DNA of 23,760 nt. Source: a virus. The DNA is taken from positions 1 to 23,760 of IMG/VR virus record IMGVR_UViG_3300034407_002608. The stretch is one strand, 5' to 3'. Under the pieces are notes generated by a model. That model worked only from the letters and a program-made list of their open reading frames with translations, ran no database searches and was not told the DNA's origin. Positions 1-19,863 of this stretch are shown here, in pieces (the first letter of the stretch is position 1; every line of letters starts with the position of its first letter). The position numbers and the translations under genes are program-made.

Positions 1-34
1 TAGTCAAACCCGAAATTACATATTCTAAATTCAT
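1..34 (-). CDS. Partial gene start, cut by window edge
   Basis: An ATG at 32-34 overlaps the folE stop codon by one base (TAATG), the same coupling used throughout this operon. It reads MNLEYVISGLT before the window ends. Eleven residues are too few to identify it. By position it is the next gene of the preQ0 cassette or the start of the resumed replication module; which one cannot be told here. Confidence 0.55.
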   Translation of the reverse strand, partial: MNLEYVISGLT

Positions 35-693
35 TATTTTCTTACCGCTAATTGCATAAACTCATTTCTAAGTCTTCCATCATCAAAGAAAGCTCCACCT
101 AGTTTTGATGTAGTCATACCTGATTGTTGATCTCCGATACCTCTTGACTTAACACATAAATGTTGAGCTTCCATCAGTACTGCTATGTCGTCTGTACCTA
201 GTATATACTGTAAAGCAAAATATATTTGTTCATTTAATCTTTCTTGTACTTGAGGTCTTCTCGCGAAGAAATTAACAATTCTATTCAATTTAGAAAGTCC
301 TACAACTTTGTCTTTCGGTATGTAAGCTACTTGAGCCACACCATTAAAGTTTACAAAGTGATGTTCACATAATGAATGAAAAGTAATATCTTTCTGTATT
401 ACCATTTGATTATATTTCATCTTGTTATCGAATGTAGTGATCTTCGGAAATCTGTTATAAGATAATCCATAACACAATTCACTAACAAACATCTTCGCGA
501 CTCTATCTGCTGTACCACCGATTGAATCATCTTCACGATCTAATCCTAATACATCAATAACTGTCTCCATATTGTCACGAATCAATTCAATTTTTTCTGA
601 TTCGTTCAATTTACTTTCTAATATCGGTGTTTCGACACCATTCGATATTAGATATTCTTGTACTCTTTTACCAAGTAATTTATCTGTTTTCAT
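34..693 (-). CDS. folE: GTP cyclohydrolase I (FolE)
   Basis: This 219-aa protein is GTP cyclohydrolase I, which converts GTP to 7,8-dihydroneopterin triphosphate, the first step toward both folate and 7-deazaguanines. The zinc-site residues of the family are visible: Cys109 and His112 in SLCEHHF, and Cys180 in HLCVKSRG. The length matches the bacterial enzyme of about 220 aa. The start ATG overlaps the queC stop (ATGA), so the gene is translationally coupled to queC. With queD, queE and queC in the same run of genes, its product is most likely committed to preQ0 rather than folate. That is inference from context; the enzyme assignment itself is secure. Confidence 0.96.
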   Translation of the reverse strand: MKTDKLLGKRVQEYLISNGVETPILESKLNESEKIELIRDNMETVIDVLGLDREDDSIGGTADRVAKMFVSELCYGLSYNRFPKITTFDNKMKYNQMVIQKDITFHSLCEHHFVNFNGVAQVAYIPKDKVVGLSKLNRIVNFFARRPQVQERLNEQIYFALQYILGTDDIAVLMEAQHLCVKSRGIGDQQSGMTTSKLGGAFFDDGRLRNEFMQLAVRK

Positions 694-1457
694 AATTTAT
701 ATTTATCCAATTCAAAATACCTCGGACTTTTGTCCAAAGCGTTAATAATATCAGTATCTTCTTTTCCTCTATAACCACCGTTATAGATTGAAGTCAATAC
801 ATTCTCTAACCATGGAGAATCCCATGGATTTTTCTTCCAATACCCTTGAGTATCTATTCCATTGTTTTCAAGTGAAACCCATTTTCTAAAACAAGCTTTA
901 CATTGACCACAATGTTGTTCTTCACCTTCATAACATGAATAAGATGTTAGAAGATATAATTGATTACCACCGAAAGTAATATATTCATTTACTAAATCAG
1001 TTTTTGTTCTGTCTTTGAAAGGTGAACTAATAGAAAATCGTCTTTCTTCTGTCCAATGTTGTGCCTGCCACATATGATTCAATAAGTCTTCCATTCTTGT
1101 ATAGAACTTTTCATCTTTATCGAATGATCTATCTCCATGTACAGAACCTAACCATATTGTTTCACCGAAATGAGAAGCTAGTAATGTAAGATGAGCGTTT
1201 CTGTTCGGAATGATCGCGTCGTCCCTTTCAAAAATACCTAAGTCAATTACATCATCAAGATTGACTAATTTAGATTCATCAATACCGATTGAATCAAAAG
1301 TCTTTCTTTCAGTCTTATCATAATTAGAATTCATACTAATGTTTAAAAGTACATCAGGTTTCATCAAGTGATTAATTATAAGACTGTCTTGTCCACCACT
1401 AAAGAGAAGTACAGATTTACCTCTGACTTTTTCTTTATTGTCTGTTATCATTTTCAT
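690..1457 (-). CDS. queC: 7-cyano-7-deazaguanine (preQ0) synthase QueC
   Basis: QueC is an ATP-dependent enzyme that turns 7-carboxy-7-deazaguanine plus ammonia into preQ0. The 255-aa protein has the PP-loop SGGQDS at residues 20-25. A zinc-binding Cys cluster lies near the C-terminus: Cys175, then Cys183, Cys186 and Cys189 in HCGQCKAC, followed by FRKW as in the family. The length is slightly above the usual 220-235 aa because of a longer C-terminal tail. Start and stop overlap the neighbouring genes by four bases on each side (ATGA), so it belongs to one translational unit with the small membrane protein upstream and folE downstream. A second in-frame ATG two codons later is an alternative start. 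Confidence 0.95.
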   Translation of the reverse strand: MKMITDNKEKVRGKSVLLFSGGQDSLIINHLMKPDVLLNISMNSNYDKTERKTFDSIGIDESKLVNLDDVIDLGIFERDDAIIPNRNAHLTLLASHFGETIWLGSVHGDRSFDKDEKFYTRMEDLLNHMWQAQHWTEERRFSISSPFKDRTKTDLVNEYITFGGNQLYLLTSYSCYEGEEQHCGQCKACFRKWVSLENNGIDTQGYWKKNPWDSPWLENVLTSIYNGGYRGKEDTDIINALDKSPRYFELDKYKL

Positions 1458-1711
1458 GTCGCTTTCCTTAGTCTATAAAATTTATGTAAACCGTATACAC
1501 TTAATGAGAACCAAAACACTTCGATCACCATACTAGCTAAGTTCCAATTATATAATAAACTTACAGTTACTAGTATCGCTACAATCATATTGTTAAAACT
1601 ATACCAAAATCCTTTAGGATCTATTCTATCAAATTGAAGTAAAGCATAAGTACTAATTAATAAAGCGACTCCAACTAAACCAATAATATCCGGTATTCCT
1701 ATATCAACCAT
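1454..1711 (-). CDS. Small membrane protein, CBU_0592-like
   Basis: This 85-aa protein has three hydrophobic stretches, at about residues 8-25, 38-53 and 60-76, and a basic C-terminus (HKFYRLRKAT). The N-terminal pattern IPDIIGLVGVALLISTYALLQ resembles the CBU_0592-like family of small bacterial membrane proteins, known by pattern only and without a settled function. It overlaps the 50-aa membrane protein upstream by 8 bases and queC downstream by 4, so it is embedded in the preQ0 operon. The position suggests a link to precursor transport or membrane-associated metabolism, but nothing in the sequence proves that. It has no resemblance to the known queuosine-precursor transporters YhhQ or QueT that I can see. 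Confidence 0.8.
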   Translation of the reverse strand: MVDIGIPDIIGLVGVALLISTYALLQFDRIDPKGFWYSFNNMIVAILVTVSLLYNWNLASMVIEVFWFSLSVYGLHKFYRLRKAT

Positions 1712-1856
1712 AAGCTATCGCTCCCACTAAAAATCCAAAGTAAAAAATAAAGATATCAAAAAAGAAATGCATCGCGAATGATAACGCGAATATCTCTTTC
1801 CAATGTATCTTACAAATATCAAATTTATCTTTGATCCATTCTATAATTCTATTCAT
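1704..1856 (-). CDS. Small single-pass membrane protein (50 aa)
   Basis: I place the start at the ATG at 1854-1856, which overlaps the queE stop by one base (TAATG). A longer in-frame reading up to 1889 would run inside queE and lacks a better start. The 50-aa product has a basic amphipathic N-terminus (MNRIIEWIKDKFDICKIHW) followed by one long hydrophobic, Phe-rich segment (about residues 20-48) that can cross the membrane once or form a hairpin. I do not recognise a family. It is coupled to queE and to the 85-aa membrane protein, so the two membrane proteins probably act together. Confidence 0.65.
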   Translation of the reverse strand: MNRIIEWIKDKFDICKIHWKEIFALSFAMHFFFDIFIFYFGFLVGAIAYG

Positions 1857-2704
1857 TATGTTCCTATTTGATTTCCAAAAATGTAACAATGAACTCTTGC
1901 TGATACATTGTACCCTCTATCCATTGTTTGTATTGTTATGTCTTTCGCGACTTCATCTTGTGATTCTTCTGTTGCACCTACAGGCATAATCCATATCGGA
2001 TAGTCAACACCCGCGTCTCTAAACTTAATGATTGATTCTTCAATTTCATTCCAAGCTTCGTCTGTACCATTACATACAAATTTTAATTGACCAATATCTG
2101 ATAAGTCATGATACTGTTTAACTACTTCTGGTTGAATACCTTCTTTCTCACCAGCGACACTCCATAGTTTCGGACTGACTGAAAAGAAAAATTCTACTTC
2201 TTCTTGTATACTTTGTAAATAATTAGTTAAGATCGGATCAAGACTTCTTGTACCATTTGTTTCCCATGTAATATTAGTGAAACGATTTCTTCGACCTAAC
2301 AGTCTTTCCATTTCTGTTAGAATCTTTACTGTATTCTTCTGTGCTGCTTTCATCAAAGGTTCACCACCTGTAAAAGCTATATGTGTATGTCTATCATACA
2401 TTTGATCATATAATCTTTTCGCGACTTCTTCACAAGTTTCATTCTTTTGAATCTTCGCGAACTTCTTACTCCAAGAATAAGATGAATCACAACCATATTT
2501 CCATACAGGTAAGTCTTCTACATTTTTTACATCAATAAGATCAAAATCTTTGTATGGTAATTGATATGTTGAAGGATCAGTCGGATCATCTTGTCCGAAT
2601 CCATTACACTCTAAATTACAACCAAAGAATCTTAACCAAGTTGTTGGTACACCTGTGTAGTGACCTTCACCTTGTATACTCTTAAAAATTTCCGAATACA
2701 GCAC
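1856..2704 (-). CDS. queE: 7-carboxy-7-deazaguanine synthase QueE (radical SAM)
   Basis: QueE is a radical SAM enzyme that contracts 6-carboxytetrahydropterin to 7-carboxy-7-deazaguanine. I start it at the GTG at 2702-2704 because GGGAG lies 5 nt upstream; a TTG six codons earlier has no such site. The 282-aa protein shows the QueE N-terminus (YSEIFKSIQGEG), TGGEP at 112-116 and the expected downstream fold pattern. The iron-sulfur cysteines are Cys29 and Cys33 in GCNLEC, with the third at Cys72 in YGCDSSYSW. A 38-residue insert therefore separates the second and third cysteines, where the simple radical-SAM pattern has two residues. The gene overlaps the queD end by 23 nt. Confidence 0.93.
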   Translation of the reverse strand: MLYSEIFKSIQGEGHYTGVPTTWLRFFGCNLECNGFGQDDPTDPSTYQLPYKDFDLIDVKNVEDLPVWKYGCDSSYSWSKKFAKIQKNETCEEVAKRLYDQMYDRHTHIAFTGGEPLMKAAQKNTVKILTEMERLLGRRNRFTNITWETNGTRSLDPILTNYLQSIQEEVEFFFSVSPKLWSVAGEKEGIQPEVVKQYHDLSDIGQLKFVCNGTDEAWNEIEESIIKFRDAGVDYPIWIMPVGATEESQDEVAKDITIQTMDRGYNVSARVHCYIFGNQIGT

Positions 2705-3146
2705 TGTTACTCCCGTGTTCAAATACTTTAACTGATCTTACTTTAACTCTATCGTCTTCGAAATGTAGTTGACAAAAGTTAAATACTTCTTCCGCGAACG
2801 CTTCACAACCTACATTGTCTAATACTCTTAAATCAATTAGATTAAGATTCTGTAACATTAAAAATGTTTCATACTCCGGATCATCATGAGCTATTACAGT
2901 TGTATGATCAAAAGTTTCTTTTAGATATTTCTTTAGTAATCCTAGATCACCGAAATCAATAACCCAATTTTGTTTATTTAATGTTGAAGACTCGAATGTT
3001 ATTTCAAATCCTAACGCGTATCCATGAATCAGATTACAATGAGAGTCTGCTCTCCATTGTCTGAATGCACATGAATGACCTGTCTCATTACCATATGTTT
3101 TTACAACTCTATATGGTCTTAATTCTGTTCTTTCTCTATATTTCAA
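2682..3146 (-). CDS. queD: 6-carboxytetrahydropterin synthase QueD
   Basis: QueD makes 6-carboxy-5,6,7,8-tetrahydropterin from dihydroneopterin triphosphate. This 154-aa protein starts with TTG overlapping the gp44 stop (TTGA). It has the family zinc/active-site region: His24 in TGHSCAFRQW, then SHCNLIHGYAL with Cys37 and His41, and FDHTTVIAHDD further on. The usual HGH zinc pair appears as HGY, so Tyr43 replaces one classic ligand. His36 immediately before the Cys may compensate. I believe this CFRQW/SHC/HGY form is a recognised proteobacterial subgroup of QueD. The overlaps with gp44 and queE join the replication genes and the modification cassette into one transcript. Confidence 0.9.
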   Translation of the reverse strand: MKYRERTELRPYRVVKTYGNETGHSCAFRQWRADSHCNLIHGYALGFEITFESSTLNKQNWVIDFGDLGLLKKYLKETFDHTTVIAHDDPEYETFLMLQNLNLIDLRVLDNVGCEAFAEEVFNFCQLHFEDDRVKVRSVKVFEHGSNSAVFGNF

Positions 3147-4081
3147 TTTAATTTACACTCCATCATTAATTCAGTCATACATGCTACCATGTTAACTTCT
3201 TGATCTGCTACAAACGCTGACTTATATGTGTAGTCACTCAATATTATTATTGCTTGAGGTACACTACTGTTTTCCATTCTAGTAAACAATGAGTCATATA
3301 TTTTTCTGTATATCGCTTGTGGATCATTATGTATATTTAGCGCTACCCATTTTCTCATTTTTGAGAACTCTTTGTCTCGAATAAAACTCAAGACTTCTTG
3401 TAGAGACTCATCATCTAAGTTCGCGAGAACACCACTATCAATCTTACCAGACGCTGAATACTTCTGTAATTCATTTAGAACTCGTCTAAAGTCCGGAAAG
3501 AACTTCTGTACTAACTCTACAACTACTTGTTCATTATAATCTATACTTTCAGTTTTAAGAATATGTAATATTCTTTGAAAGATACCACCTGCTATAGTTG
3601 GTTTCTGACTTGATTCAATCGTAAAATCAATAACACTACATCTTGAATGTAATGGTGAGATAATTCTATTTTTATAATTACAAGTAAATATGAATCTACA
3701 GTTCTTAGAAAATTCTTCTATGAATCCTCTGAGAGCTGGTTGTGTTGATTGAGGATTTAGATAATCTGCTTCATCAAGAATCACAATCTTCGGACCACCA
3801 CCTAATGATACTGTAGACGCGAACTGTTTAATCTTAACTCTGAGAGTATCAATGTTTCTTTCTTCTGAACCATTGATCATTACAAAGTCAGCGTCTAATT
3901 CATTACATAGTGCTTTCGCGACTGTAGTTTTACCTACACCTGCTGTACCACATAATAGTAGATTCGGTATTTCTTTGTTGTTTACAAAATCTTGAAATAT
4001 CTTTTTTGTTTCTGTCGGTAGAATACAATCATTGATAGTTCTAGGTCTGTATTTTTCAACCCATAAAAAATCTTCTTTCAT
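3143..4081 (-). CDS. 44: Sliding clamp loader large subunit gp44 (AAA+)
   Basis: This 312-aa protein is the T4 gp44-type clamp loader ATPase, an RFC small-subunit homologue that opens the gp45 ring and loads it on primer-template DNA. The N-terminus LWVEKYRPRTINDCI is the RFC box. Walker A is GTAGVGKT at 45-52, Walker B is ILDEAD at 101-106, and the SRC motif is at 146-148. The length is close to T4 gp44 (319 aa). It lies 2 nt downstream of gp45, the standard T4 neighbour. Its usual downstream partner gp62 is not next; queD begins inside its stop codon instead. Confidence 0.96.
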   Translation of the reverse strand: MKEDFLWVEKYRPRTINDCILPTETKKIFQDFVNNKEIPNLLLCGTAGVGKTTVAKALCNELDADFVMINGSEERNIDTLRVKIKQFASTVSLGGGPKIVILDEADYLNPQSTQPALRGFIEEFSKNCRFIFTCNYKNRIISPLHSRCSVIDFTIESSQKPTIAGGIFQRILHILKTESIDYNEQVVVELVQKFFPDFRRVLNELQKYSASGKIDSGVLANLDDESLQEVLSFIRDKEFSKMRKWVALNIHNDPQAIYRKIYDSLFTRMENSSVPQAIIILSDYTYKSAFVADQEVNMVACMTELMMECKLN

Positions 4082-4083
4082 TA

Positions 4084-4752
4084 CTAAGCTTCATTATAAG
4101 TTGAATCAGGTTCCAAAGCTATAAAGTATTCTACAGCGATATCTCTGTTAGTAAAGTGAGCGATTCCTTTTGATGATACAAAGACTGTATAGTTACCATT
4201 AAGAACTTTAATGTTTTCCATTCTTAAGAACATTTCAAAAGTTGATCCGTTACCCTCTGCCACAGTTCTACTGTAAACATTAGATGTCGCGTTCTTTTTG
4301 TCTTTGACTGTTAATTGAACTGTTGTACCATCACTAGAAAGTACCATGTCTGGTAATGATAATACAGAAGAAGCTTTGAGTAAACTTCCAAGTACATCTT
4401 CATCAAGATCAAAACTGATCTCAGGTTCAGGCATTGTAATATCTTTCTGTGGTGATATAACCATTTGAGGATCAGCGTAGTAATAAGTTACTGAGTTATC
4501 TCCTTCTGTAACATTCACATTATCACCATTGAAATTGAAGTCAGGAGTATCGAATAATGATACTGCTCCAAGATATTCTGATAGATCATAGATTGAATGT
4601 TCTGTATCGAAGGTTTCGTCTACGACTGCCTTCGCGAAGATATTCTTCATTGCTGATACAGTTGTTAGTTCATTACCGGACTTAACTGTAATCCCGGAAT
4701 TGATTGTTGAAAAATTATTCAACAATTTTAGTGTGTTTTCACTTAGGTTCAT
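4084..4752 (-). CDS. 45: Sliding clamp gp45 (DNA polymerase processivity factor)
   Basis: I choose the ATG at 4750-4752 (MNLSENTLKLLNNF), because homologues of this type begin just here and GGAG lies 12 nt upstream. An ATG six codons earlier has no ribosome-binding site. The 222-aa product matches the T4 clamp in length (228 aa) and in its opening pattern of a helix, then GITVKSGNELTTVSAMKNIFA. gp45 forms a trimeric ring that tethers the polymerase. In T4 it also activates late transcription through gp55 and gp33. It overlaps the DUF3310 gene by 14 nt and is followed directly by gp44, so it is probably driven by the promoter at 5066-5093. Confidence 0.92.
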   Translation of the reverse strand: MNLSENTLKLLNNFSTINSGITVKSGNELTTVSAMKNIFAKAVVDETFDTEHSIYDLSEYLGAVSLFDTPDFNFNGDNVNVTEGDNSVTYYYADPQMVISPQKDITMPEPEISFDLDEDVLGSLLKASSVLSLPDMVLSSDGTTVQLTVKDKKNATSNVYSRTVAEGNGSTFEMFLRMENIKVLNGNYTVFVSSKGIAHFTNRDIAVEYFIALEPDSTYNEA

Positions 4753-5059
4753 TTGATTCACTTTCTCCATTATTTAAATCATGCACATGAAGTGCTATTA
4801 TGCCATAATGTAAAACTTTCATTAAGTCTTTACGATTATAACCTTCTTTTTTACCATAGCGTTGAGCATATTTGAGAATGTTTCCTATACAGAACCCTTC
4901 TCCATGTCCACCGTCTATTATAAACTCTGTTGCTTGAAAATTATTAGCTGAGTAATGTTGACCATAAGTACTTTTGATATATAAATCAAGTTCTTTGATA
5001 ATTCTATCTTCTGAATACTTAAAGTCAATTTTTTCTTTTCTAAATAATTTCAAACTCAT
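4739..5059 (-). CDS. DUF3310 family protein
   Basis: This 106-aa protein carries the DUF3310 signature in its second half: TEFIIDGGHGEGFCIGNILKYAQRY.KK.G..RKDLMKVLHYG. The family is widespread in phages and includes T7 gp1.7, a nucleotide kinase, so a role in nucleotide metabolism is plausible but not shown here. The start ATG at 5057-5059 overlaps the stop of the upstream 72-aa gene (ATGA). It also lies only 6 nt after a consensus -10 box, so transcripts from that promoter would begin at or near the start codon. Confidence 0.85.
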   Translation of the reverse strand: MSLKLFRKEKIDFKYSEDRIIKELDLYIKSTYGQHYSANNFQATEFIIDGGHGEGFCIGNILKYAQRYGKKEGYNRKDLMKVLHYGIIALHVHDLNNGESESNEPK

Positions 5060-5274
5060 ACATCTATTATATCAGCATTTGCTGTCCTGTCAAGTTTCTT
5101 TCTGTCGTATTTTGTTCGATCTTTTTGTACTTGAGTTTTAGCGTGTGCTGGTGTTTGTTTTCTCACTTTGACATCAGGTTTTTCTTTGCCGAAGATTTTT
5201 TCCCAATTATCTTGGTAATCTGTATTCGACTCTGGTCTTCTTTTTGACCCTTTACCTCCATGCCACTTAGTCAT
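5056..5274 (-). CDS. Basic hypothetical protein, 72 aa
   Basis: I do not recognise this protein. It is very basic and hydrophilic (MTKWHGGKGSKRRPES at the N-terminus, then a Lys/Arg-rich middle), with no cysteines and no hydrophobic segment, and is probably disordered or nucleic-acid binding. The WHGGKGSKRRP start resembles short proteins seen in other marine T4-like phages. Its start overlaps the SET-domain stop by one base and its stop overlaps the DUF3310 start by four. The last 13 codons, encoding KLDRTANADIIDV, double as a complete promoter. Confidence 0.75.
   Translation of the reverse strand: MTKWHGGKGSKRRPESNTDYQDNWEKIFGKEKPDVKVRKQTPAHAKTQVQKDRTKYDRKKLDRTANADIIDV
5066..5093 (-). promoter_or_regulatory. 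Sigma70-type promoter before DUF3310-45-44
   Basis: On the minus strand, TTGACA (5088-5093) and TATAAT (5066-5071) are separated by 16 nt, a perfect match to both consensus boxes. The spacer shares ACAGC.AATGC with the promoter before gene 55. The ATG of the DUF3310 gene begins 6 nt after the -10 box, which predicts a leaderless or nearly leaderless transcript. The promoter lies inside the last codons of the upstream 72-aa gene. Confidence 0.85.
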
Positions 5275-5612
5275 TAGTTTAAGATATCATCATATCCTAC
5301 TGTATAGAATACTGTTATCTCCTCATCTTTTTTGATTGGTCTAATTGTATATAATTCTCTTTGATCACCATGATGATAATGAATATTTTTATTGATGAAA
5401 CAATTAGGATTATCTGAATGATTGATAAAACCACCAAGAGGTGTTCTAATCCAATCGTGTCTGTTAGACTCCCATATATGAGTTTCTCCAATAAAGATAC
5501 CAGCTTTCAAGTCTTCTGTTGCATAGAGACCTAAACCATGTATCTTTGATTCTTTAATTGTGACTTCTGGTATCAGAGGTCTGTAGTGATGTGATCCAAA
5601 ATCTTTTTTCAT
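5274..5612 (-). CDS. SET-domain protein
   Basis: The start at 5610-5612 overlaps the stop of the 163-aa gene (ATGA); a longer reading from a TTG upstream is less likely. The 112-aa product is a minimal SET domain. It has GLGLYATEDLKAG near residues 27-39 for the S-adenosylmethionine site, GGFINHSDNPNC at 60-71 (the RxxNHS-type pseudoknot motif) and EEITVFYT with Tyr103 near the C-terminus. SET proteins methylate lysines on proteins. Phage versions of this size occur, but their substrates are not known. It lacks the pre-SET and post-SET cysteine clusters of eukaryotic enzymes. Confidence 0.88.
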   Translation of the reverse strand: MKKDFGSHHYRPLIPEVTIKESKIHGLGLYATEDLKAGIFIGETHIWESNRHDWIRTPLGGFINHSDNPNCFINKNIHYHHGDQRELYTIRPIKKDEEITVFYTVGYDDILN

Positions 5613-6100
5613 TTCGTGTACCATGTTGGTGTTGGTCTGTTTTTCCAACTACAAAAGTGAGACTTCTCACCCATGTAATAATTTCTGTAAGCTTCAATAG
5701 TATCTGTAGACTTGTATTCGTCTGGCATACATTGAGGTGGGTTTGTTCTTCTTTGATTTATCATTGGAATGTTCAGAGGTGGTTCTCTTAAAACTTCTCT
5801 CAATTTTAAATCTGTAGTATGAACTTTCTCATACCTGTATGTGTATTCTTCACATAGTTCTTCAAATAGATTAAACATCCATTTATAATTGTAGACATTT
5901 TCTCTTACCCATTTTGTACTTGGGTGATTAAGATGTGCTTGTTTGTACATAAACAAGTTATCACATTTATCATTTCCATCTAATGCTCTGTGAGCTGTAC
6001 ATAACATTTGAGCTGATTCTAAAATCATTTTAACACAATGTTTATCGTTATGCATCTGAGCACAGACTAATGGTTCTTCATGTAAATAAAATATATTCAT
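5609..6100 (-). CDS. Conserved phage protein, possible distant DenV relative
   Basis: This 163-aa protein belongs to a family I recognise from phages and bacteria but for which I know no function. Recurrent features are an N-terminal HxDKHxxKMILE helix (HNDKHCVKMILE), AHRALDG, NHPSTKWVRE, an aromatic helix (YNYKWMFNLFEEL), EYTYRYEK, PPLNIP, MPDEYK and a C-terminal WKNRPTPTWY. The last element and the overall helical layout loosely recall T4 endonuclease V (DenV), which ends in RPTWYKYYGK, but this is a weak resemblance by eye. It overlaps the 73-aa gene upstream and the SET gene downstream by four bases each. Confidence 0.85.
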   Translation of the reverse strand: MNIFYLHEEPLVCAQMHNDKHCVKMILESAQMLCTAHRALDGNDKCDNLFMYKQAHLNHPSTKWVRENVYNYKWMFNLFEELCEEYTYRYEKVHTTDLKLREVLREPPLNIPMINQRRTNPPQCMPDEYKSTDTIEAYRNYYMGEKSHFCSWKNRPTPTWYTK

Positions 6101-6616: not shown

Positions 6617-6692
6617 TGGTGGAGGTAATAGGGATCGAACCTACGACCTACTGGTTGCAAACCAGTCGCTCTCCCAACTGAGCTATACCCCC
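6617..6692 (-). tRNA. tRNA-Ala (anticodon UGC)
   Basis: The 76-nt minus-strand sequence folds as a full cloverleaf. Its acceptor stem GGGGGTA/TACCTCC contains a G3-U70 wobble pair, the classic alanine identity element. It also has a D-arm with AGCTC..GAGC, an anticodon stem ACTGG/CCAGT with loop TTTGCAA, and a T-arm with GGTTCGATCC. Discriminator A73 and the CCA end are encoded. It lies 2 nt downstream of tRNA-Thr and upstream of a protein gene, so it needs to be cut out of a longer transcript. Confidence 0.96.
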
Positions 6693-6694
6693 AC

Positions 6695-6764
<70 letters not shown>

Positions 6765-6770
<6 letters not shown>

Positions 6771-9079: not shown

Positions 9080-11410
9080 TCATACTGCCATTTGTCCTAC
9101 AAATTGATTTAAGATAACTCTCTGTAACATTTTGTTGTTACCAGATTTTACTAGAGCTCTTTTCAACTGAGCTTTAGTTGCACCTTCATCAACATTCAAT
9201 TCATCTTCTTGATAGTTGATCTTTAGTTTTTTTGAATTGATCAAAATAGCTAAGTCATAAGAACCATCAGTAAATGATGTTGATAATTTGTTAAATTCTT
9301 TTGTATGTTTAGAAGCTGTCTCACCGTACGAGTTTTCTTTAGTACCACAGAACTTCTGAGCTTCCCATACAATGTCAGCACCTCTACCTTCTTTCAAGTA
9401 GAAACCTATAGTTCTGACACCAGTTGTTTCTTTTACCCATTCTAAAAGTCCATGAGTTACTCTGTCATGATTTTTATCAACTGAGAATGTTCTGTTAAAC
9501 TTTTTGTCAACTAAGTTTCTGTTACGACCTGAACCGAAACAAGAATGACTAGCACCATCAGTTAGTGTGATTAAACTACAAATATCTAAGTTATAATTAA
9601 CTTTGAAATCTCTAATGAAATCTCTCATAATAACAAGTGAATGATCTAATGGAGTACCACTTAGATTTAAATTAGAAGGTGTTGACCATCTTCCATCATG
9701 ATCTACTGACTCATCACCGTAATAATCATATCTACCTTCGATTGACATAGCTAGTTGTAACCAGTTTTCCATACTTCTGTTAAATTCAGAATTAGTCATT
9801 GTGTCGTTGAAAATTTCTAGTAAAGCTACATCACCGATACTCCATTGTCTTTCATTAGTCTCAGCTTTTTTACCATACATTTTTGTTTCTTGTTCTTCTC
9901 TGATTTGAGTTTCTATTTGTCTTCTAGTTTCTTTGTATTCTTTTGAATCATATTCGAATTTTTCACAAGCTTCATAAACTCTGTTATAACTTCTACTGTA
10001 ACCATCTGAGAAAGCAAATAGTCTGAAAGGTATCTGTAATCTTCTACAGAACATTGAAAGTAAAGATGCTTGTTCTACAGTTGATTGAACTGTACCATGC
10101 ATTGAACCTGACCAATCAAGTAACATTACAACACCATGATTTTTACCTTCTGGAATAATTTCAACTCTATTGAAAATATCATCTTTCAATTTAAACAAGT
10201 GAAGTTTGTTCATATCAAGTTCACCTGACTTTGAAGACCAGCTTCTGTTATAAGCAGCGGCCGCTTTCTTCATTTCAAATTCTTTTACCATGTATCCGAT
10301 AATTTTTTTGTTATCATCTTGAAACTTTTTAGTATAAGCTTTGATCGGATCCCTATCTAATTTATGACCTTGAAAATCAGGTTCTGAAATATGTTTGTCA
10401 ATTTCTTTGTAATCAACAATATAATTTTTGTATTTGATTTTGTCTTCTACAACATAGTATGAAGGTTCATCATAATATTCTGTTTGTTGAACTAGTTGAT
10501 CTTCATTCTCTCTGAATGATTCGTCAGTAGTTGACTTGTTCATTTCATTTTGAAGTTTTTCAGAAGTTGATTCACTACCATCTTCTGATTCTTCATCTGA
10601 TTCTTCGTTAGAAGTTTGTTCATCACTTTCAGATTCTTCACCATCAGAATTTTCTTCTGAGTCTTCGTCTGATTCACCTTTCGCGTCTGAACCATCTGAA
10701 TCTGATTCAGATTCTTTTTCTTCAATTTCTACAGTAAATGAATCACCACTTTGTTGATCATCATCTTCTGGACCTTCTTGTTCTTCCAATTGATCTAACA
10801 AGTCTTCAAGTTCTTGTTGAGTCATTGAAGCTATTTCTTCGTCTGTTATATCTTTTTGTCTCTCAAAAAGTTCAAGAGCTAACTCCATAACTTCTTCGAA
10901 AGTGTTTAGATTTTCACATCTTTTGATATAAGGTGTTTCTTCTTCATTGAATTCAATCATAGTTGTTGAACCAATTTTAAAGAAAAGATTAATTCTGTCG
11001 ATTAGATTTAATTCATTTAAGTTTTTACCTCTGATACCAAAGAAGTCTTGATTAGCTAATTCTCTGTACCCAGCATAGAATGATCTTCTCAATCCAGGAT
11101 ATTTAGCTTTGATCATTTTCTCAATTCTACAATCTTCGATAACATTCAAGTATCCTTTGAAGACCATACCTTTATCAGAAACAGCACCATGCCATCCATC
11201 GGCCGGAGTATTAATAGCGTGTCCTACTTCATGACCCATGAATAGATCATAGAGTTCAGGACTCATATCTTCTTTAAGAATAGGACATACTAGTGTTCTA
11301 TTTTTAACATCAAAGTAAGCTGTTGGAACATTTTTGTGTAAAACATTAATGTCTTCTGTAGCCATCAACTTAGCTAGTAAGTCTTTATTTGTATTTTGAA
11401 TCTCAATCAT
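9080..11410 (-). CDS. Metallopeptidase-like / VWA-domain protein (CobT-like)
   Basis: This 776-aa protein combines a zincin-like N-terminal region with a C-terminal VWA domain. HEVGH sits at 60-64 with Glu92 in NVIEDC as a possible third ligand. Residues about 205-300 are a linker of Asp, Glu and Ser. Residues 315-425 are a mixed region, and the VWA domain from about 426 has a complete MIDAS start (DWSGS, Asp432-Ser436) and a later TDGAS. CobT of cobaltochelatase has the same acidic linker plus VWA layout, and phage homologues sit beside cobS. HEVGH suggests peptidase activity or an inherited fold. The -10 box of its promoter ends 6 nt before the ATG, and no ribosome-binding site is visible. 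Confidence 0.88.
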   Translation of the reverse strand: MIEIQNTNKDLLAKLMATEDINVLHKNVPTAYFDVKNRTLVCPILKEDMSPELYDLFMGHEVGHAINTPADGWHGAVSDKGMVFKGYLNVIEDCRIEKMIKAKYPGLRRSFYAGYRELANQDFFGIRGKNLNELNLIDRINLFFKIGSTTMIEFNEEETPYIKRCENLNTFEEVMELALELFERQKDITDEEIASMTQQELEDLLDQLEEQEGPEDDDQQSGDSFTVEIEEKESESDSDGSDAKGESDEDSEENSDGEESESDEQTSNEESDEESEDGSESTSEKLQNEMNKSTTDESFRENEDQLVQQTEYYDEPSYYVVEDKIKYKNYIVDYKEIDKHISEPDFQGHKLDRDPIKAYTKKFQDDNKKIIGYMVKEFEMKKAAAAYNRSWSSKSGELDMNKLHLFKLKDDIFNRVEIIPEGKNHGVVMLLDWSGSMHGTVQSTVEQASLLSMFCRRLQIPFRLFAFSDGYSRSYNRVYEACEKFEYDSKEYKETRRQIETQIREEQETKMYGKKAETNERQWSIGDVALLEIFNDTMTNSEFNRSMENWLQLAMSIEGRYDYYGDESVDHDGRWSTPSNLNLSGTPLDHSLVIMRDFIRDFKVNYNLDICSLITLTDGASHSCFGSGRNRNLVDKKFNRTFSVDKNHDRVTHGLLEWVKETTGVRTIGFYLKEGRGADIVWEAQKFCGTKENSYGETASKHTKEFNKLSTSFTDGSYDLAILINSKKLKINYQEDELNVDEGATKAQLKRALVKSGNNKMLQRVILNQFVGQMAV

Positions 11411-11416
11411 TTATAT

Positions 11417-11446
11417 AGTATATCAAAAGTGTACCTGCGGTTTCAA
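11417..11446 (-). promoter_or_regulatory. Promoter copy B (extended -10 type), before the VWA gene
   Basis: Minus strand: TTGAAA (11441-11446), an 18-nt spacer CCGCAGGTACACTTTTGA, then TATACT (11417-11422) with TG one base upstream. The spacer matches copies A and C, whereas the sequence after the -10 box does not. The VWA start codon follows only 6 nt after the -10 box, so transcription should begin at or next to the ATG. Confidence 0.8.
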
Positions 11447-16059: not shown

Positions 16060-16590
16060 TTATTCGTCTACTTTTTTCTTCTTAGACCCGCGAGGTTTGT
16101 AGTTTATCGGATTCATATTCTCTTGTAAGAAGTCAACATAAGAGTTGTTCATACCTGTCGTATTTCCATCCATCGTGTCAAAAGTATCGAACATGACCCC
16201 AGCTTGTTCTATACTTCTTTGTTTAATCGCTGCTTGTTTCTTTTCTTTATGAATTCGTCTGAGAAACGCGAAATAAATGATCTGAGTTACATAAGCAAAA
16301 GCGTTTTGAGATTTTTCTTCATTAAAGTTCTCAATGTATTGTAAACAATTTTCAATACCATCACATATCATTTCATCTCTATATGAATAATTGATAAAGT
16401 TAGGTTTAGTAGATAGTCTAGTAGCGATCTTGTAAATACATTCTCCAATATACTCTGATACTCTAGGCTTCTCTTTACCTTTATTATCGGCTTTTCTACA
16501 CGCGTGATTGTGTTCAATAATCGCGGCAGTAAACTCTTTATTGTTTACATAGTGAACTGAAGCTTTTGTTTGTCTTTTTTCTCTAGTCAT
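16060..16590 (-). CDS. 55: Late-transcription sigma factor gp55
   Basis: This 176-aa protein corresponds to T4 gp55 (185 aa), the small sigma-family protein that directs host RNA polymerase to TATAAATA late promoters. It has the sigma region-2-like block with YSYRDEMICDGIENCLQYIENFNEEK, then AFAYVTQIIYFAFLRRIHKEKK, as in gp55 homologues. The C-terminus is short and charged (PRGSKKKKVDE), where T4 gp55 has its clamp-binding hydrophobic tail. Two matching late promoters occur in this window, at 20161 and 23076. Its own promoter ends 6 nt before the ATG, and there is no ribosome-binding site. Confidence 0.93.
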   Translation of the reverse strand: MTREKRQTKASVHYVNNKEFTAAIIEHNHACRKADNKGKEKPRVSEYIGECIYKIATRLSTKPNFINYSYRDEMICDGIENCLQYIENFNEEKSQNAFAYVTQIIYFAFLRRIHKEKKQAAIKQRSIEQAGVMFDTFDTMDGNTTGMNNSYVDFLQENMNPINYKPRGSKKKKVDE

Positions 16591-16596
16591 ACTACT

Positions 16597-16624
16597 ATTA
16601 TACTTGCATTCGCTGTACTGTCAA
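16597..16624 (-). promoter_or_regulatory. Sigma70-type promoter before gene 55
   Basis: Minus strand: TTGACA (16619-16624), a 16-nt spacer, then TATAAT (16597-16602), both perfect consensus. The spacer shares ACAGC.AATGC with the promoter at 5066-5093, and the stretch to the start codon is 6 nt in both. The stop codon TGA of the upstream gene lies inside the -35 box. Gene 55 mRNA is predicted to begin at its ATG. Confidence 0.88.
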
Positions 16625-19276: not shown

Positions 19277-19277
19277 A

Positions 19278-19300
19278 ATGTATATAATATATAGTGTACT
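19278..19300 (-). promoter_or_regulatory. Possible promoter upstream of uvsY
   Basis: The 26-nt gap reads, on the minus strand, GTACACT then TATATTATATAC before the ATG. GTACACT also occurs in the spacers of promoter copies A-C, but the TG and exact -10 box do not. A 6-bp inverted repeat (GTACTT/AAGTAC) overlaps the stop codon of the upstream gene. This is suggestive only. Confidence 0.28.
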
Positions 19301-19302
19301 TT

Positions 19303-19863
19303 TTAAGTACTAGTTTTTACTGTAAATAAAGTAAATTTCAATGTTAGATCACAAACAGCATATTCGACACCTTGAGCATCAGTTTGGAAATCAATACTTC
19401 CAAGACTTACAGGAAAACAATCAGTAAACATGAACTCTAAATTCGCGTTATTAGCTGATGTATTAACAATAACAGTAGCGTCTGAATACATATTTTCAAA
19501 ACTAGCGTTACTGAATTTACCTGTAGATGTTTTCTTAGCATCTACTAAATTGATGAAATCTTGTGTATTATTTCCTGGTCCTAATGCCATGATCCAATTA
19601 AAGATTTCTTGATAGTTTGTCATATCTTCATCAACAACAAACTTAACTGTCAATGGATCGAATGTAATCTTATCACCTGGTAAAGCTGACTGAATAGCTA
19701 AAGTAGTTTCATGTATAGCTTCACTCATAGTAACACTTGGTAATGTTACACCTGTACAAAAATATCTAGTCTTAGGTAATTTATTAATCGCTAGATCAAA
19801 ATTTACAGGACTTAAATAGTTTAAGTTTGTCGGTTGATTACTTGTCCAATTAGCTTTAGCCAT
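19303..19863 (-). CDS. 3: Tail-tube-fold protein, probably gp3 (tail completion/sheath stabiliser)
   Basis: This 186-aa protein has the T4 gp19-like tail-tube pattern: NYLSPVNFDLAINKLPKTRYFCTGVTLPSVTM, then PGDKITFDPLTVKFVVDEDMTNYQEIFNWIMALG. Such folds are shared by tail tube gp19, tube initiator gp54 and tail terminators. In marine T4-like phages the gene between 23 and uvsY is normally 3, and the length fits T4 gp3 (176 aa), so I prefer gp3. Gene 19 normally precedes 20-21. The call of family is firmer than that of the exact gene number. Confidence 0.75.
   Translation of the reverse strand: MAKANWTSNQPTNLNYLSPVNFDLAINKLPKTRYFCTGVTLPSVTMSEAIHETTLAIQSALPGDKITFDPLTVKFVVDEDMTNYQEIFNWIMALGPGNNTQDFINLVDAKKTSTGKFSNASFENMYSDATVIVNTSANNANLEFMFTDCFPVSLGSIDFQTDAQGVEYAVCDLTLKFTLFTVKTST

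Follow-up and report, generated by a model that had tools for sequence, protein, structure and literature searches.

Promoters of T4 and its marine relatives

In T4, the middle promoters, which depend on MotA and AsiA, serve uvsY, gp45-44 and primase, and at the late promoters gp55, gp33 and gp45 act jointly. Among the marine T4-like phages, the cyanomyoviruses have no motA or asiA homologues (PMC2984593), and middle promoters could not be recognised in the pelagimyophages (PMC7029224), nor were they recognisable in the OM43 phage Melnitz (PMC9004378). A TANNNT sequence lying ~10–12 bp before a start codon has been taken as a sign of a leaderless gene (PMC3160421); no description of leaderless genes in these phages was found in the literature searched, which was covered in part.

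The window, meaning the whole stretch of DNA analysed (23,760 bases, 33% G+C), is a fragment of a T4-like marine myovirus. Its gene order, gp21-22-23-tail tube-uvsY-uvsW-gp55-47-46-peptide deformylase-cobT-cobS-DUF3310-45-44, is that of Pelagibacter phage HTVC008M, and its gp23 shares 64% identity with the HTVC008M protein and ~60% with the proteins of Melnitz and the SAR11 phage Mosig. Most of the genes form a single long co-directional block. The minus strand also carries a tRNA-Ala(TGC) adjoining a tRNA-Thr(TGT) (6617–6770), a phage-encoded SET-domain protein (5274–5648; PF00856, 1.5e-12) and, at 34–3146, GTP cyclohydrolase I (Pfam) beside genes that by appearance are queC-, queE- and pyruvoyl-tetrahydropterin synthase-like, which together look like a deazapurine-type pathway set.

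Two copies of one promoter in the window

The sequence TTGACAGnACAGCnAATGCnnnTATAATAGnnGTATG is present twice, exactly, at 16624–16588 and 5093–5057, both on the minus strand. It is referred to here as class A, and the features concerned are as follows.

16588–16624, minus strand: class A promoter of gp55; exact match, 0 expected; aligned with relatives
16624–16619, minus strand: its -35 box, TTGACA
16618–16603, minus strand: its 16-nt spacer, with CAGC at 16615–16612
16602–16597, minus strand: its -10 box, TATAAT
16596–16591, minus strand: its 6-nt discriminator
16590–16588, minus strand: ATG
16060–16590, minus strand: gp55, late sigma factor, 176 aa, predicted leaderless (PHROG 234, 1.4e-57)
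5057–5093, minus strand: class A promoter of DUF3310-gp45-gp44; exact match, and without mismatch to the core that 93 viral stretches share (below)
5093–5088, minus strand: its -35 box
5087–5072, minus strand: its spacer, with CAGC at 5084–5081 and GCTG at 5076–5073
5071–5066, minus strand: its -10 box
5065–5060, minus strand: its discriminator
5059–5057, minus strand: ATG
4739–5059, minus strand: DUF3310 protein, 106 aa, predicted leaderless, heading the DUF3310-45-44 cluster (Pfam PF11753, 1.3e-10)
4084–4770, minus strand: gp45 sliding clamp, 3' of the class A promoter (Pfam PF09116, 1.1e-12)
3143–4081, minus strand: gp44 clamp loader of the same cluster (Pfam PF00004 and Gp44_lid PF21328)

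An earlier note, made from the letters of this DNA, had proposed that the promoters of gp55 and DUF3310-45-44 share a pattern, and this is borne out: both copies are exact, where 100 dinucleotide shuffles give an expectation of 0 matches to TTGACAGNACAGCNAATGCNNNTATAATAGNNGTATG. The position it gave, 16591–16624, correctly covers the gp55 copy from the -35 box to the discriminator. Not remarked on in that note is that the terminal ATG of TTGACAGnACAGCnAATGCnnnTATAATAGnnGTATG serves as start codon for gp55 (16590) and for DUF3310 (5059). Both copies read TTGACA-N16-TATAAT and so conform to the sigma70 type (-35 TTGACA and -10 TATAAT, 15–19 nt apart). The two 16-nt spacers are identical at 11 of 16 positions, compared with 4.1 ± 1.8 for shuffled spacers; the right arm, GCTG, is missing from the gp55 copy, which has two mismatches to the core.

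From TATAAT to the ATG there are exactly 6 nt in both copies, so that the usual sigma70 start would coincide with the A of that ATG, and a leaderless mRNA is predicted; no Shine-Dalgarno sequence is present within these 6 nt in either copy. An in-frame TGA lies 5' of both gp55 and DUF3310, with no ATG, GTG or TTG between stop and start, and the start assignment is therefore forced. A -10-like hexamer ~12 nt 5' of the start, the mark of leaderless genes (PMC3160421), is shared by the two copies and the majority of relatives.

Comparison with described promoter classes

The gene set served by T4 middle promoters overlaps that of class A, and both combine a -10 box with a second upstream element. 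They differ in that class A keeps a good -35, TTGAC, and lacks the MotA box TGCTTTA at -30; the additional element is instead CAGC-N4-GCTG within the spacer, and the ATG stands at the predicted +1. No TGCTTTA occurs in the de-duplicated promoter set described below, in which this region reads TTGACAnn. The sigma70-type early promoters of S-PM2, Syn9 and Melnitz have -35 and -10 boxes readable by the unmodified host holoenzyme (PMC2984593, PMC9004378), as is predicted for class A; class A is set apart from the early promoters of marine T4-like phages by its conserved spacer element, its fixed 16-nt spacer and its predicted want of a leader. Nor does it have the form of a T4-like, gp55-dependent late promoter, TATAAATA without a -35 box, as it pairs TATAAT with a good -35; a late-type TATAAATA is found before gp22 in the window. 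The spacing of the -10-like hexamer to the start is that of leaderless (TA-led) bacterial genes and of lambda cI, whereas here it is specific to a gene set in a T4-like lineage, and goes with a single promoter class and the machinery of late transcription.

Leaderless geometry across relatives

In an alignment drawn from 80 IMG/VR relatives, the nearer gp55 genes keep the -10, N6 and ATG while the -35 and spacer drift. A near-consensus -10 ends 5–9 nt before the ATG in 59 of 64 gp55 orthologs (at least 60% identity), with a modal distance of 6, and the same spacing is found at just 4.4% of all ATGs in the gp55-ortholog loci. Among strong sigma70-like sites in the close relatives (L001–L012), 15 of 32 have an ATG at exactly +6. 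The geometry is alike at uvsY, DUF3310 and the cobT-like peptidase (offsets 6–9), as it is, in some genomes, at a large ORF starting MHYYTN that is DNA polymerase-like by appearance (also 6–9). By contrast with these relatives, gp55 lies behind a leader in T4, in the cyanophages examined, among them S-PM2, Syn1, P-HM1 and P-SSM4, and in HTVC008M, Mosig and Melnitz. Upstream of T4 gp55 (L257), TATAATAGATCTATGAATTGA does contain TATAAT-N6-ATG, but there it opens a frame of two codons, after which come a Shine-Dalgarno sequence and the actual gp55 start; the resemblance could be chance.

It might be argued that the N6-ATG arrangement is incidental, and that translation proceeds mainly from longer mRNAs reading through from upstream. 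The long co-directional block would allow this, and the DUF3310 promoter sits within the 3' end of an upstream 72-aa ORF whose stop is overlapped by the DUF3310 ATG (ATGA), an overlap typical of coupled translation, which is also possible there. Such a reading is improbable given that dozens of divergent relatives, across several gene families, keep the -10/ATG offset, that gp55 has no preceding Shine-Dalgarno sequence, and that the promoter is retained even where, as in L184, the upstream gene stops short of it. The leaderless start is preferred for most copies, with the reservation that in some the first useful ATG is at +18, as before primase in L394, so class A is not always leaderless.

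Distribution of the class A core and the genes served

The core TTGAC-N4-CAGC-N4-GCTG-N-TATAAT is present in 93 IMG/VR stretches, as retrieved with a pattern that itself required both the CAGC and GCTG arms; scrambling the left arm (ACGC for CAGC) reduces this to 0 viral stretches. The further copies, whose absence would have counted against the earlier note's proposal, are found across related viruses, while the window itself holds just two: at up to three mismatches it contains no match to TTGACAGNACAGCNAATGCNNNTATAATAGNNGTATG beyond the exact pair. At the same tolerance, class A is absent from the stretches of cultured relatives that were covered, namely all of HTVC008M and parts of Mosig and Melnitz. 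Among 58 distinct core copies, a minority of whose loci came from a scan that required an ATG, 45 have their first ORF-opening ATG at +6 (34 copies) or +7 (11 copies). In ten records of the clade, 16 of 17 copies with at most four mismatches and intact TTGAC and TATAAT are followed by an ATG at +6 or +7, the exception being in G015.

Class A precedes uvsY, DUF3310 (-45-44), gp55, gp33, a primase and small ORFs. The late co-activator gp33 was identified by Pfam PF16805 (5.9e-23) and PHROG 254 (1.6e-22), and the primase by PHROG 47 (2e-75). In this lineage, the late-transcription trio of T4, gp55, gp33 and gp45, thus shares one promoter class, and as the three act together in T4 this is a meaningful grouping. 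The connection to T4-style late activation, suggested from gp55 and the clamp, is strengthened by the inclusion of gp33. The window's own subclade, L003 and L008 included, has no class A element in the promoter region of uvsY (19277–19320 in the window), which carries instead GTACTTAAAAAGTAC, with 6-bp arms and a 3-nt centre, upstream of the -10 region.

Within the collections searched, class A is confined to one uncultured phage lineage. Both class A and a second class described below were also sought in 84,980 prokaryote genomes as a possible host regulon; the second class gave 0 matches and class A just 5 core copies, scattered, and hence no host is inferred.

Conservation of the spacer and its possible causes

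Spacer letters are conserved beyond the needs of sigma70, as had been proposed from the two window copies, and a real promoter family is indicated. A de-duplicated set of 27 promoters (gp55, DUF3310 and uvsY) carries 1.9, 1.0 and 1.1 bits at spacer positions 4–6 (CAG), compared with 0.1–0.4 at positions 1–3. Among 74 promoters with a 16-nt spacer but without a match to the full core as fetched, CAG stands at positions 4–6 in 28, and elsewhere in at most 4 at any position. Between genomes, spacers of different genes are identical at 7.6 of 16 positions on average (shuffled spacers, 4.1). Within genomes, the cross-gene value is 10.0/16, against 8.2 with genome labels permuted (p=0.0004, from six genomes or fragments, some of them closely related).

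This likeness within genomes is predicted both by copying between sites and by co-evolution with a binding factor. Under the former, a promoter cassette would have been copied between genome sites by recombination and the spacers would resemble one another by descent, with no binding factor required. Recent copying predicts just such an excess of likeness among the copies of one genome, and this origin is a serious if not quite even prospect. It sits less well with the variation of the centre, of positions 1–3 and of the discriminator among the copies of a single genome while CAG stays, and with the persistence of the element in several gene families and across gp55 orthologs down to ~84% identity, a persistence that points to selection on it.

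Under the latter, a putative dimeric phage-coded regulator would bind CAGC-N4-GCTG and repress or activate all of these genes together, and class A would then be a middle promoter under operator control. Such a regulator is plausible: at least six gene families have copies in which the arms are conserved around a variable centre, no matches survive scrambling of the left arm, spacers co-vary within genomes, and prokaryote genomes almost wholly lack the core. Many class A copies are perfect CAGC-N4-GCTG palindromes. Against this, compensating changes of the kind expected in an operator were not seen, arm covariation exceeding column-permuted controls in no register. The right arm is overlapped in part by an extended -10, TGn, which is present in many copies; the window gp55 copy and many others retain the left part only; and the scan had demanded both arms beforehand. 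The regulator is accordingly entertained as a tentative possibility, and, given the missing covariation and the overlap with TGn, an operator is not claimed. A general hairpin or operator reading of the spacer is retained only as this alternative, as arms that look compensatory by eye (L186, L005, L009, L035) failed the covariation test; shuffle tests for spacer hairpins gave modest enrichment for DUF3310 and uvsY, and none for gp55 or cobT.

A second promoter class

A further motif, ACCGCnGGTACACTTTTGnTATAnTAT, designated class B, has three copies in the window, which precede a small ORF, cobT and cobS.

11697–11668, 11446–11408 and 9070–9041, minus strand: class B copies, ACCGCnGGTACACTTTTGnTATAnTAT matches (-35 starts 11697, 11446 and 9070)
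11408–11446, minus strand: class B promoter of the cobT-like peptidase; TATACT-N6-ATG, with geometry as in class A and another spacer motif

Class B carries an ACC-N3-GGT element, often followed by TATGTACATA, and accompanies leaderless or short-leader starts. It is found in 54 viral stretches, with 1–4 copies in related records. Its spacer is nearly invariant though the downstream proteins are just 52–62% identical, and it is a stronger case than class A of conservation beyond sigma70 needs. Co-variation of class B copies within genomes, loose matches included, was not significant (p=0.355).

The leaders of cobS and the small ORF both carry ATAATGAAAAATAA...GAGGTAAATAT (9040–8994 and 11667–11640, minus strand). 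In front of cobS it gives a short upstream frame that closes at the cobS start (TAATG), which suggests re-initiation. A third conserved promoter of leaderless type, TTTGACA-N17-TATAAT (or TACAAT)-N6-ATG, stands before an ORF of 91–93 aa (G008, G015, G016, L177).

A proposed role for class A

The preferred reading, to which we give a probability of about three in four, is that TTGAC-N4-CAGC-N4-GCTG-N-TATAAT-N6-ATG represents a lineage-specific promoter class that would be read by host sigma and would give leaderless mRNA for late-switch genes. Host RNA polymerase with its housekeeping sigma factor would recognise the near-perfect -35 and -10 boxes across the 16-nt spacer, aided in many copies by TGn, and transcription would begin at the A of the ATG itself, leaving the first gene to be translated from a leaderless mRNA. 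As the genes behind class A include those of the T4 middle/late switch (gp55, gp33, DUF3310-gp45-gp44, uvsY and a primase), the late-transcription factors would be made together, before late promoters become usable. What the sequences show directly is the promoter class itself, with its geometry, the genes it serves and, in the collections searched, its confinement to the lineage; reading by host sigma, the leaderless start of the mRNA and shared timing are inferred.

Because related phages lack recognisable middle promoters, and cyanomyoviruses lack motA and asiA, class A may be a candidate for the mid-infection promoter class missing from earlier surveys of such viruses. The fuller version of this idea, in which class A would be the missing SAR11/OM43-type middle system, with a putative phage-coded regulator reading CAGC-N4-GCTG and co-ordinating gp55, gp33, gp45, uvsY and primase, mostly from leaderless mRNAs, is judged unlikely.

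Class A bears on how abundant marine T4-like phages time their genes without MotA and AsiA. A searchable motif marking gp55, gp33, gp45 and uvsY together offers a direct test in metatranscriptomes and in future isolates. If these mRNAs are leaderless, the phage's own late switch would be translated independently of Shine-Dalgarno sequences, and this could be to the advantage of those proteins in certain states of the ribosome.
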